Shown here one piece after another: positions 15,459-41,146 of a stretch of 64,000 nt of DNA. Both the position numbers and the translations under genes were made by a program. Numbering within the stretch: position 1 is the stretch's first letter; every line of letters starts with the position of its first letter. The notes below the pieces were generated by a model. It did no database searches and was not told the DNA's origin. It saw only the letters and a program-made list of their open reading frames with translations. This DNA is from Acaryochloris sp. IP29b_bin.148 (GTDB taxonomy: Bacteria > Cyanobacteriota > Cyanobacteriia > Thermosynechococcales > Thermosynechococcaceae): the NCBI RefSeq assembly GCF_028285565.1, contig NZ_JANQOY010000080.1:1-64000 (forward strand). The letters are read 5' to 3'.

Positions 15459-16794
15459 ATGATTGGCATGACTAAAACTATATAAAGATTAGGATAACTT
15501 GTTTATCAAACGAGTTGAGCTTGTAAATATCCTGCTGACAGTCGTCTAGTTTTTAGTAAATTCATAGGAGTCAAAACTCTAGACAGTTAATACTAATTCC
15601 TCATGAGAATGTTTTTTTATCTCGATGAATTGACAAATTTTCAATGTTTTTGAAAACCTATATAGGTCATTTATATGGGAAATTCATATTAGTAAAAAAT
15701 CTATAATATTTACAGTGCACTCAGCTTGTAAATTTTTAATTTAACTGAAATTAGATTTTACACAAGCATTAGTCGAAATATTTCATCAACGCAGGATCTA
15801 AACTGAAGATCCATAGAAAAGAAAGGCTCGGAGTATTGATCAAAAAACTATTCTTTTGTCAAAATCACATTAATAATGTAAGTTGATAGTTAGTTAAGCT
15901 TGACTTAAATATATATATTTTTCCTCTTTAAGAACCGATCATATAAAACAAAAAATGTGCGAGATCGAGTTGGTTCTAATGCTGAAAACTAGCTAAGAGA
16001 ACTCTCTTATACAAATTTCGTATAGAGTATAAACTACTTGATCTACTGAATTAACGGGTTTGAAGTGCCTTTACAGATTAATACAGGTCATCTTACTGAG
16101 TAATGTTGATTTAGAAGCTGAGTTTGATAGTAGTAAACCTAAATGTTTTAACTCTGCAATCTAGCTGAGATACAACAAACTTTTCGACCGAATTATGGGC
16201 CTCTATCCTACTATAGGCATAATGGTAAAGCCATTGACTATAGGATTTAGCAAGAATAGTAACGTAGACCAATATACATTGGCAACTTAGGAACATATCG
16301 CCGTTGCAATTCAGTATTTTAACTTCAGAAATCTTGACTAGTCTTACTTTCAGATATCAAGTTTTCGATTCCAAACTTTATGCATCTGCAAAGATGACAT
16401 GCTCCCCGGCAACTTCAGCCAGCCTGCTGTCTGATCTGCATAAATCTTTTCACCTGTGCAAGCTAAGTATCTATTTAATTAGCATCTGAATCAGGAATAT
16501 TTGAGTTTCAATTCTTACTAGTATACAGACATAATTTTGCTACTTCAAGTAGCAGAACCGACATGTAGATAGGCTCTCTTCATTATTTTTTTATGAATTC
16601 CTTATGTCTGCTATATAATTAAAAGCTGCATATGCTTTTAGTCCAATTTTTACATAACAAAGAATCGATGAAGTACTTGTAGATAAAAGTCTTCATCGAT
16701 TCTTTGGCTATGCCCTTTGTCTAGAGAGGCCGAAGCCACTTAGCGAATAGGCTTGAGAAAGTTTTGGAGATTTTGAGAGAGCTTATCTTAGGAA
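15459..16794. other. Long AT-rich non-coding stretch
   Basis: About 1.3 kb without a supportable gene between the pilin operon and the repeat-tailed pilin. The two short reading frames here (16111-16296 minus, 16304-16489 plus) have no family features or ribosome-binding sites. The only strong structures are the hairpin at 16658-16706 and a small TAAAAGC/GCTTTTA stem near 16619-16640. A small RNA is possible but cannot be shown from sequence alone. Confidence 0.6.
16658..16706. other. Perfect 16-base inverted repeat
   Basis: CAAAGAATCGATGAAG (16658-16673) is an exact inverted repeat of 16691-16706, with a 17-base loop. It lies 89 bases beyond the stop of the repeat-tailed pilin gene, so it could end or stabilise that transcript, but no T-run follows on either strand, unlike a standard terminator. 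Confidence 0.8.
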
Positions 16795-37789: not shown

Positions 37790-38056
37790 TTAAACGTCGT
37801 AGACGCGACACTCCTCAGCATTGGGGTGACCATCACAATAGCTTTCAAACTGAGAAGGCTGCGCTTGTACTTTCTGGTGGGAATATTCAGCTTGCAGTTC
37901 TTCGACAATATCCCAAGCAACGGCGCAAGCTTTAGAGCTGCTTCCTTCATTAGCGCAGGTTTCACGCGCTTGTGATAGCGCATCTTGCATACGCTTTTCC
38001 ATCGCTACAGATTGCTCAAGGGTAGGATTTGGGGCTGTCTCTAAAGTAAGTGGCAT
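37790..38056 (-). CDS. CP12-domain protein (first copy)
   Basis: An 88-residue CP12 protein. CP12 is an intrinsically disordered, redox-controlled linker that binds GAPDH and phosphoribulokinase and switches off the Calvin cycle in the dark. Both disulfide pairs are seen: ETCANEGSSSKACAVAWDIVEELQAE (nine residues between cysteines) and YCDGHPNAEECRVYDV (eight). Compared with the second copy it has about 15 extra N-terminal residues and a divergent middle (YSHQKVQAQPSQFE). It lies downstream of the fructosamine-kinase gene on the same strand. Because it retains all residues known to matter, it is probably functional. Confidence 0.93.
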   Translation of the reverse strand: MPLTLETAPNPTLEQSVAMEKRMQDALSQARETCANEGSSSKACAVAWDIVEELQAEYSHQKVQAQPSQFESYCDGHPNAEECRVYDV

Positions 38057-38243: not shown

Positions 38244-39116
38244 CTAAACCATGGCCACCACTTGCTCAATCATTCGCTGGGCCTGAGATGCATAGCCCCC
38301 CCCAAATAGGTTGAAGTGATTGAGGATGTGATACAGGTTATAGAGAATTTTGCGCTGTTGATAGCCCTCGGCTAAGGGCCAAGTCTCTTGATAACCTTGA
38401 TAAAAGGCTGGCGGAAAGCCGCCAAATAATTCTGTCATAGCAATGTCCACTTCTCGATCGCCATAATACGTCGCTGGATCGAGAATAATAGGTTCACCTG
38501 CCTGACTAAAGGCTGCATTGCCTGACCAAAGATCACCATGCACTAGGGATGAGGTAACCGGGTGAGCTAACAAAGCAGGGCTTTGATCCAAAAGCACGTC
38601 TCCCTGACGAAAATGGCCACCGTTCCGCTGGGCGAGCTGAAGTTGATAATGAATCCGATGTTCGGTAAAAAATTCTCCCCAGTTTGAGGTCCACGGATTG
38701 CGTTGTGGGGTATCGCCAATCGTATTGTTTTGGTGCCAGCCAAAGCCCTGATCGTGAGCTTGGCGGTGCATTGCTGCCAGTTGTTGTCCCATGGCAAACC
38801 AGGCCTGCGTGTCACCATGGCCGAAGGGAATCCATTCCAGGATGATGTAACTTTGCCCTGCGGCTGTTCCCCAACTCAGCGGTTTGGGTACCCGAATGCT
38901 CTGGGAAGCATGCATTTCCTTCAGACCTGCTGCTTCCGCTTCAAACATGGCCACTTTGCTGGCCTGATTCAGCTTGACGAAATAGGAGTGCTGACTGTCG
39001 CTGATCTGATAGGCCTGGTTGATGCTGCCGCCCCCAACAGACTTGCGATCGCAAACAACAAACTCTCGTCCCTGAACTTGACTGATATTGCGTTGAATCT
39101 CTATCCAGACTGACAT
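38244..39116 (-). CDS. Fructosamine/ketosamine kinase family protein
   Basis: A 290-residue kinase-fold protein of the fructosamine kinase family, thought to phosphorylate glycated amines so the sugar is released (protein deglycation). VGGGSINQAYQI is the nucleotide loop, YFVKLNQ the ATP lysine, HGDLWSGN the catalytic block and ILDPATYYGDREVDIA the metal-binding block. Start at 39116 is firmly set by AGGAGG 7 bases upstream, preferred to 39152. It lies between the two CP12 genes on the same strand, 93 bases after the second CP12. The link to CP12 may be chance, but glycation by sugar phosphates is a plausible Calvin-cycle connection. Confidence 0.88.
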   Translation of the reverse strand: MSVWIEIQRNISQVQGREFVVCDRKSVGGGSINQAYQISDSQHSYFVKLNQASKVAMFEAEAAGLKEMHASQSIRVPKPLSWGTAAGQSYIILEWIPFGHGDTQAWFAMGQQLAAMHRQAHDQGFGWHQNNTIGDTPQRNPWTSNWGEFFTEHRIHYQLQLAQRNGGHFRQGDVLLDQSPALLAHPVTSSLVHGDLWSGNAAFSQAGEPIILDPATYYGDREVDIAMTELFGGFPPAFYQGYQETWPLAEGYQQRKILYNLYHILNHFNLFGGGYASQAQRMIEQVVAMV

Positions 39117-39209
39117 GTTTCGCCTCCTCACCCTCATCAAAAAAAAAGACAACCTCAGCAGGCTGCCTTTTGGAAATGTTCGTAAATATCCTAGTCGGGG
39201 AAATCGAAA

Positions 39210-39437
39210 TTAATCGTCATAGATGCGGCACTCTGCGGCATCAGGGTTATCGTCACAATATTGCTCAAGGGAATTTTTGTCTTGATTGTTGCCACCACGC
39301 TGATGGGAAGCTTCTGCTTGCAATTCTTCAACAGCATCCCAGGCAGCCGCACATTCACCAGACGTGGCTCCGCTGGTGTCACAGGTTTCGCGAGCTGTCT
39401 CCAACTCTTTCTCGATCTTTTCTTGAATATTGCTCAT
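39210..39437 (-). CDS. CP12-domain protein (second copy)
   Basis: A 75-residue canonical CP12. The cysteine pairs are in RETCDTSGATSGECAAAWDAVEELQAE and YCDDNPDAAECRIYDD, with usual spacing; AAAWDAVEELQAEASHQRG is the consensus core for PRK binding. It is closer to the textbook form than the first copy and is the upstream gene of the run CP12-fructosamine kinase-CP12. Regulation by thioredoxin-dependent redox state is known for the family; no promoter motif was identified. Confidence 0.95.
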   Translation of the reverse strand: MSNIQEKIEKELETARETCDTSGATSGECAAAWDAVEELQAEASHQRGGNNQDKNSLEQYCDDNPDAAECRIYDD

Positions 39438-39771
39438 AGGTCAGTTTTCAACCACTCTTATCTATGTGTTTATCTGAGCGAACAACAGCGTTTAATGGCT
39501 GAAGTTAAGCTGTTCTAATACGTTTCTGGCTTATGCATATTAGTGTAGCCTTAACTCAGAATAGTTGACCAAGTCTAGAAATAGGGTGCCTTTTAACACT
39601 GTTTTAGGAATGTTCTAGCAGCAACCCAGCCGGATTGAACCAAAGATGGATAACAAAATGCATTTTTTGTAAATCGAGATACACATTTTTTTACAAGGTG
39701 TAGGCTGTGCTACACCCATTTATTGAAAGCGTAGCTATACTTCATGGATATCAAAGTTAGCGGAGTCTCTC
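39438..39771. other. Intergenic region with NtcA-like box and hairpins
   Basis: About 330 bases between the second CP12 gene (minus) and a 47-residue ORF (plus). It holds TGTA-N8-TACA at 39668-39683, a TTGTAAA/TTTACAA stem around it (39667-39673, 39690-39696) and a 7-base hairpin GGTGTAG-GCTGTG-CTACACC (39697-39716). Confidence 0.6.
39668..39683 (+). promoter_or_regulatory. NtcA-like palindrome
   Basis: TGTA-N8-TACA contains the NtcA consensus GTA-N8-TAC and lies 89 bases before the 47-residue ORF. A TAN3T -10-like TAGGCT starts 18 bases after it rather than the usual 22, so an NtcA-activated promoter is only a possibility. Confidence 0.35.
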
Positions 39772-39915
39772 ATGACTACTATCTGCGACAACACAGATCA
39801 AAAAGAGTTGCTGCGTTTCTGGGTAAGAGAACTGACCCAATTGCCTCCCAACAAAGTTGATGAGATTGTAATGGCTCTGAATGAAGACGCCCCCACCCTC
39901 AATCCCATCGCATAA
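39772..39915 (+). CDS. 47-residue ORF, possible small protein
   Basis: ATG at 39772 with GGAG six bases upstream, reading 47 codons to TAA at 39913-39915. The product begins MTTICDNTDQKELLRFWVRE, is helical and acidic with one cysteine, and matches no family I know. Support for a real gene: an upstream palindrome, a fitting ribosome-binding site and a stem-loop just downstream. It lies alone between genes on opposite strands. Too short for confident coding statistics; it could instead be the leader of a small RNA. Confidence 0.45.
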   Translation: MTTICDNTDQKELLRFWVRELTQLPPNKVDEIVMALNEDAPTLNPIA

Positions 39916-39945
39916 CCCACGAAGGGGGATTGATTATTGCAGAGT

Positions 39946-39985
39946 AAACCGATGGCGTTAGGTCTAATGCCATTGGTTTGTTGTT
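39946..39985 (+). terminator. Terminator-like hairpin after the 47-residue ORF
   Basis: AAACCGATGGC (39946-39956) pairs with GCCATTGGTTT (39969-39979), 11 base pairs including one G-U, followed by GTTGTT. It ends 79 bases before the glycosyltransferase start. Confidence 0.6.
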
Positions 39986-40057: not shown

Positions 40058-41146
40058 TTGGTGTCTGCGGGTAAATCCTATCGATTACTATTGGTCTCTA
40101 CACCCCTCGGCCCTCTGGGATCCGGGGTAGGAGGTGGAGTAGAGCTAACTCTTCTGAATATGCTGGATGCTCTGGCCCAGCGGGGTCATTGCATTCAGGT
40201 AGTTGCACCTCAGCAATCTCATTTACCCAACACACCAGTCATCACCGTGGCTGGCTCGCCCCAGATTCCAGCCCAAACCCAAACTCGCCAGACCCCGATT
40301 CATCTGCCTGAAAACTCAGTTCTAGCCAATATGTGGTGGCAGGTGATGACCCTACAATCCGAGTTTGATCTGATTATCAACTTTGCCTACGATTGGCTGC
40401 CCCTGTACCTAACGCCTTTTTTAGACACCCCCGTTGCCCATCTAATCAGTATGGGGTCGCTTTCGGACGCGATGGATCAAATTATTGGTCAAATAGCGGA
40501 GCAGTTCCCCCATACAATTGGTGTCCATACTCAAGCCCAGGCCAATACCTTTCCCTTTGCCCAGCACTGTCATCCTGTCGGCAACGGTTTCAATTTAGAT
40601 CGCTACCAATTCACCCCTACCCCCAAAGACTACTTATGCTGGTTGGGGCGGGTTGCTCCCGAGAAAGCCTTGGAAGATGCGGTCACTGCCATCGATCAAA
40701 CGGGGCAAGCTCTCAAAATTATGGGCCATATTCAAGATCAGGCCTATTTTGACCAAATTCAGGCTCAGTTCCCCCAGGCCAATATCGACTATCTAGGGTT
40801 TCTGGATACCGCAGCCATGCAAGCAGTCTTACGCTATAGCCGAGGGTTGCTCGTAACGCCTCGCTGGGTAGAAGCCTTTGGCAATGTTGTGATTGAAGCC
40901 CTGGCCTGCGGTGTTCCCGTGATTGCCTACCATCGGGGCGGTCCCGCCGAAATTGTGCAGCCAGGACAAACAGGCTGGCTGGTGGAACCCGATAGCGTCG
41001 CTGGCCTAGTAGAGGCCATTCACAAGCTGCCCGAGATCGATCGACAGACCTGTCGCCAGCAGGCCGAGCAGGAGTATTCTCTGACGGCCTTTGCTCAGCG
41101 TTTAGAGCAGTGGTTTGCTAAAATCCTGTCTCAACCCAGTACATAA
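40058..41146 (+). CDS. GT4-type glycosyltransferase
   Basis: A 362-residue GT-B glycosyltransferase. The N-terminal half shows the opening glycine loop (TPLGPLGSGVGGGVELTL); in the C-terminal half, GRVAPEKALEDAV and EAFGNVVIEALACGVPVIAYHRGGPAEIV are the nucleotide-sugar-binding blocks of family 4. The start is TTG at 40058 or GTG at 40061; neither has a strong ribosome-binding site. The LD-carboxypeptidase gene follows 4 bases after its stop, so the two are co-transcribed. Acceptor and donor sugar are unknown; glycolipid or cell-surface glycan synthesis is most likely. Confidence 0.88.
   Translation: MVSAGKSYRLLLVSTPLGPLGSGVGGGVELTLLNMLDALAQRGHCIQVVAPQQSHLPNTPVITVAGSPQIPAQTQTRQTPIHLPENSVLANMWWQVMTLQSEFDLIINFAYDWLPLYLTPFLDTPVAHLISMGSLSDAMDQIIGQIAEQFPHTIGVHTQAQANTFPFAQHCHPVGNGFNLDRYQFTPTPKDYLCWLGRVAPEKALEDAVTAIDQTGQALKIMGHIQDQAYFDQIQAQFPQANIDYLGFLDTAAMQAVLRYSRGLLVTPRWVEAFGNVVIEALACGVPVIAYHRGGPAEIVQPGQTGWLVEPDSVAGLVEAIHKLPEIDRQTCRQQAEQEYSLTAFAQRLEQWFAKILSQPST

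Follow-up and report, generated by a model that had tools for sequence, protein, structure and literature searches.

The window analysed here, a stretch of DNA of 64,000 nucleotides from an Acaryochloris genome, contains a 47-residue open reading frame (ORF) situated between a divergent CP12 gene and a glycosyltransferase gene. The features that surround it, in order along the forward strand, are the following.

39210 to 39437, minus strand: CP12 gene, divergent neighbour (PF02672, 1.5e-33)
39669 to 39682, plus strand: distal NtcA-type box GTAAATCGAGATAC, extended TGTAAA-N6-TACACA, with GTA-N8-TAC in 6/6 Acaryochloris copies
39700 to 39713, plus strand: putative proximal NtcA box GTAGGCTGTGCTAC in class II activator position, 22-23 bp to TAnnnT
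39736 to 39741, plus strand: predicted -10 box TATACT (TAN3T), conserved
39762 to 39765, plus strand: Shine-Dalgarno GGAG, read from the sequence, six bases to the ATG
39772 to 39915, plus strand: 47-aa ORF, subfamily A of an unnamed family (frame and start conservation, dN/dS, two-helix model)
39945 to 39980, plus strand: 16-bp hairpin resembling an intrinsic terminator (z=-5.2; hairpin in the same place in G001, G002 and G004)
40058 to 41146, plus strand: GT4-type glycosyltransferase, downstream neighbour (PF00534, 4.8e-25)

An initial annotation had placed an ATG at 39772, preceded by GGAG at a spacing of six bases and opening a frame of 47 residues, and all of this is confirmed in the sequence, where the stop codon occupies 39913-39915. 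The length of the ORF by itself does not distinguish it from many random ORFs in the window; it stands out because of its conservation. A protein search of 58 related genomes recovered it in five further Acaryochloris genomes at 66-77% identity (E 4e-20 to 4e-16, with alignments that span the whole ORF or almost the whole of it), and homologues with 40-46% identity are carried by five genomes of the same family (G015, G019, G017, G014 and G009). With the window copy included, the start codon and frame are kept in six of the seven Acaryochloris genomes, and GGAG is retained in five of the six copies, G005 having GGGAAA. Across these six copies the differences at the three codon positions number 178/72/330, and dN/dS, where dS is estimable, ranges from 0.09 to 0.32 and is mostly 0.09-0.18. 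Conservation of frame and start in related genomes had been proposed as a check, and it holds in the five further Acaryochloris genomes; conservation of the RNA in the absence of the frame, named as the outcome that would point away from a protein, is not what is found, given the codon-position pattern, the dN/dS of 0.09-0.32 and the kept frame. Judged from these comparisons, the ORF at 39772-39915 (+) is a genuine conserved gene of Acaryochloris and related cyanobacteria.

The same evidence bears on the reading in which the locus makes a small RNA and the ORF is incidental. While the short predicted transcript, the strong terminator hairpin and the NtcA-type promoter would all suit such an RNA, the codon-position pattern and dN/dS indicate selection on the protein, the protein similarity extends to other genera, and a paralogous protein family (subfamily B, below) exists. 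Moreover, Rfam has no family over the region, its only match in the window being a tRNA. This reading is extremely unlikely, and a small RNA as the sole product was rejected on the codon-position pattern.

The description of the ORF as an orphan proved wrong, as 13 A-type and 12 B-type sequences were collected, whereas the statement that it belongs to no known family stands: Pfam, NCBIfam and PHROGs hold no model with a significant match, and a sequence search of the PDB returned nothing significant. When 390 genomes of the class were searched with profiles, a small family centred on the Acaryochloris lineage emerged, with weak relatives in one distant genus (G053, G067 and G080). The family divides, with a support of 99/100, into subfamily A, to which the window gene belongs (consensus MxxICDnxNQxExLRFWVxELTxLxPxxVDxVV), and the paralogous subfamily B (consensus LKxWLxELTxYTPxQVDxxIAQIEQ), of which the window's own genome has two copies (C212 and C174). 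The B paralogs of Acaryochloris and other genera lie mostly between two genes that we take, from their sequences, to be hrcA and aroC (L086, L088-L092, L094 and L098). A cysteine occupies position 5 in all aligned A members and is found at that position in no B member. None of the phage, plasmid and viral contigs searched encodes the gene. Some larger proteins match the ELT motif weakly; they were set aside, as this short local similarity was taken for chance. The family is undescribed and new, and belongs to a kind of gene already known.

The position of the A gene is itself conserved. It lies between divergent CP12 and the GT4 glycosyltransferase in six Acaryochloris genomes, in Petrachloros mirabilis, in G014 and in G009; within the fetched sequence, one flank is visible in each of two further genomes, CP12 in G019 and the glycosyltransferase in G017. 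In the sole Acaryochloris genome without A (G006), CP12 and the glycosyltransferase remain adjacent, separated by only about 325 bp in which no GTAN8TAC occurs. Since the two still adjoin there, the A gene has probably been lost from G006. As a separate observation on that genome, its ntcA is split by a frameshift before the DNA-binding part, which could be an assembly error or real decay of nitrogen control; the loci behind these two observations are G006:C35:800-2300 and G006:C63:21500-24000.

Such a neighbourhood raises the idea of a carbon-fixation regulator that acts on CP12, GAPDH or PRK and brings nitrogen status to the Calvin cycle. CP12 adjoins A in A-bearing genomes wherever the contig allows the test, and the A-less genera examined have CP12 widely separated from the glycosyltransferase or on another contig. 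However, the glycosyltransferase side is linked as strongly as the CP12 side, and one ancestral rearrangement explains both; further, CP12 stays at the G006 locus without A, and the A-like gene of G012 sits at another locus. A link of A with CP12, suggested by linkage, is possible, and the regulator as a whole is unlikely. The window itself has two CP12 genes, at 37790-38056 and 39210-39437 (-), which flank a gene of the fructosamine-kinase family (38244-39152), and a further tandem CP12 copy appears to be present in G003.

Upstream of the ORF, the TGTA-N8-TACA palindrome that had been reported is real (39668-39683) and encloses the distal box. The reported upstream hairpin (39697-39716, GGTGTAGgctgtgCTACACC) is likewise present, but it contains a second GTA-N8-TAC box at 39700-39713 and, folded as RNA, has a z of only -1.9, so that a DNA site bound by a dimer is the better reading. 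As a correction to the suggestion of an NtcA site, there are two boxes, and of these it is the proximal one, formerly the hairpin, that occupies the activating position. At a canonical NtcA-activated promoter, GTAN8TAC is centred about 41.5 nt from the transcription start, with a -10 box of the form TAN3T (PMC3898017); here, a start predicted near 39748 would place the centre of the proximal box 41.5 nt away. The class II layout of GTA-N8-TAC, 22-23 bp and TAnnnT is present at 6/6 Acaryochloris copies, with the proximal box about 72 bp before the ATG. Five copies from four other genera share the layout, some exactly and some with altered half-sites. Three of them are the A genes of G015, G019 and G009; for the latter two a 24-bp spacing was picked by the automatic pattern, although TATACT and TATAGT sit 22 bp from the box. 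The other two are copies in G014, one with GTAN8CAC and one with GTGN8CAC, each spaced 22 bp from TATACT. G017 was left out of the promoter comparison, as its contig starts 44 bp upstream of the gene. In the distal box, the half-sites are invariant and the middle is variable across the six Acaryochloris copies, which is the pattern expected of a dimer-binding site; it precedes the proximal box by 31-32 bp (41 bp in G003), a distance of about three DNA turns, or four in G003. None of the 12 B paralogs has GTAN8TAC in 300 bp, and the A-like gene at a different locus in G012 has no box.

How much weight the pattern bears can be gauged from its frequency. In the 64-kb window it occurs at only two places, 39700 (+) and 16277 (-), and 249 kb of strand-bases taken from related loci yield only six matches, all of them promoters of A genes. 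In the window's own genome it is found 66 times on both strands of 5.07 Mb, or a chance of about 0.2% per 300-bp upstream region. Genome-wide it is not enriched over a reversed control; an isolated match therefore means little, and the argument for NtcA rests on conservation and position. Two features expected of a class II NtcA regulon member are found, namely the box layout and an NtcA encoded in the same genome (TIGR03697, 373 bits, over the cut-off). The conserved class II layout strongly supports the proposed involvement of NtcA, and the A gene is predicted to be activated by NtcA and induced by nitrogen shortage. An HLR1/RpaB light-response reading of the distal box was set aside, as the match was partial, made by eye and not kept in the window copy. 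The second pattern in the window has the form GTATATTGGTCTAC-N21-TATAGT at 16277 (-), and no ORF of at least 80 aa starts just downstream of it on the same strand.

At the other end of the unit, a downstream stem had been noted; it is present, but of 16 bp and not 11. Its arms (39945-39960 and 39965-39980) enclose a 4-nt loop, the predicted energy is -20.9 kcal/mol, and 0/200 shuffles were as stable (z=-5.2). At the same place G001, G002 and G004 have ACCGATGG...CCATCGGT and then a T run, typical of an intrinsic terminator, and the window copy keeps the stem with a poorer T run than these. With a conserved class II NtcA promoter, a Shine-Dalgarno sequence, a conserved frame and a hairpin terminator, the locus appears, as had been suspected, to be a complete small unit, which would be transcribed as a single-gene mRNA.

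The encoded protein is acidic and soluble (pI 4.3, net charge -4); the Acaryochloris copies are all acidic, and some from other genera are neutral. An AlphaFold model built with 28 family members predicts a two-helix hairpin (helices 7-22 and 26-38, with flexible ends), with a pLDDT of about 90 for residues 11-30 and a whole-model pTM of only 0.48. These properties, together with the promoter, bear on whether the protein could be an NtcA-repressed inhibitor of the GifA/GifB, PirA or NirP1 kind, active on the return of nitrogen. Small size and NtcA boxes are what such a protein would have, and such inhibitors are common in cyanobacteria. However, the proximal box is in an activating and not a repressing position, the NtcA box in a repressing position that marks GifA/GifB, PirA and NirP1 is lacking, and the high share of positive charges that characterises PirA and the glutamine synthetase factors is not seen in this acidic protein. 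An inhibitor of this kind is very unlikely.

Another possibility is that the protein is a distant, shortened relative or analogue of NblA, a nitrogen-starvation adaptor handing a protein complex to a Clp protease; the complex would be one other than the phycobilisome, since phycobilisomes are mostly lacking in these genomes. The two-helix pattern and the order of motifs are similar, the NblA profile aligns in the same register (residues 7-37 on 9-39), and NblA is absent over the cut-off from all seven Acaryochloris genomes (G000-G006). On the other side, the profile-profile probability is 1.4-1.9%, and 13/200 column-shuffled NblA profiles score as well; PF04485 matches 0/28 family members; the protein has nothing equivalent to the C-terminal part of NblA; A and NblA co-occur in other genera; and a fold search of the PDB gave 43 matches, none significant and none an NblA entry. 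Homology to NblA was rejected, as the profile-profile score falls within the shuffled range, and the wider reading of a relative or analogue is improbable. The ancestor of A. marina is reported to have lost genes for the production and disassembly of phycocyanin (PMC11633204). Quite unlikely, too, is a nitrogen-starvation adaptor specific to the Acaryochloris line that was kept after the loss of phycobilisomes and NblA and plays the part of NblA towards some other target, such as the chlorophyll d antenna or a Calvin-cycle complex. Matches to the phycobilisome family PF00502 number only two or three in each of G000-G006, and six or more in each of four other searched genomes of the family.

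Overall, the unit is probably a single-gene member of the NtcA regulon that encodes a lineage-restricted nitrogen-starvation microprotein acting by protein contact. Upon nitrogen shortage, 2-oxoglutarate would rise and NtcA would bind the proximal box, where it would contact RNA polymerase at the TATACT promoter and start transcription; the distal box, which faces about the same side of the DNA helix, probably strengthens or sharpens activation. The resulting mRNA of about 230 nt, ending at the hairpin, would be translated into the acidic, soluble protein of 47 aa, folded as a two-helix hairpin and carrying the conserved N-terminal cysteine. This microprotein would most likely bind one partner, be it an enzyme, a signalling protein or a protease, and thereby reset metabolism in starvation. 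Several small cyanobacterial proteins regulate metabolism by protein contact under nitrogen control (PMC7760959), and action by protein-protein contact is a guess by analogy with these.

Nitrogen-controlled microproteins constitute an important regulatory layer in cyanobacteria, and many have been found in one model strain. The present locus adds an undescribed family, the promoter of which predicts when the protein is made, in a lineage from which NblA and most phycobilisome genes have disappeared. Looking for conservation of a promoter together with a micro-ORF can uncover such genes when family databases offer no match.

Finally, the gene can be compared with the closest known systems. NblA (PF04485) and A are both small, mostly helical and expected under nitrogen starvation; A is shorter, has no significant profile similarity to NblA and lacks its C-terminal part and, unlike NblA, is present in genomes with few phycobiliprotein genes. 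With GifA/GifB, PirA and NirP1 it shares small size, predicted nitrogen control and a predicted link to NtcA, whereas those proteins are NtcA-repressed, PirA and the glutamine synthetase factors being also positively charged, and A has the geometry of activation and is acidic. Subfamily B has the W-xx-ELT-xx(T/S)P core and the expected fold in common with A, but has no NtcA box, lies at another locus, and has a longer and different N terminus without the ICD motif. The canonical class II NtcA promoters of glnA, nirA, urtA and ntcB (PMC3898017) have the same GTAN8TAC, spacing of 22-23 bp, TAN3T and distance of about 41.5 nt from box centre to start, which at the A gene is a predicted start, and the Acaryochloris promoter differs from them by an extra distal box that is helically phased.
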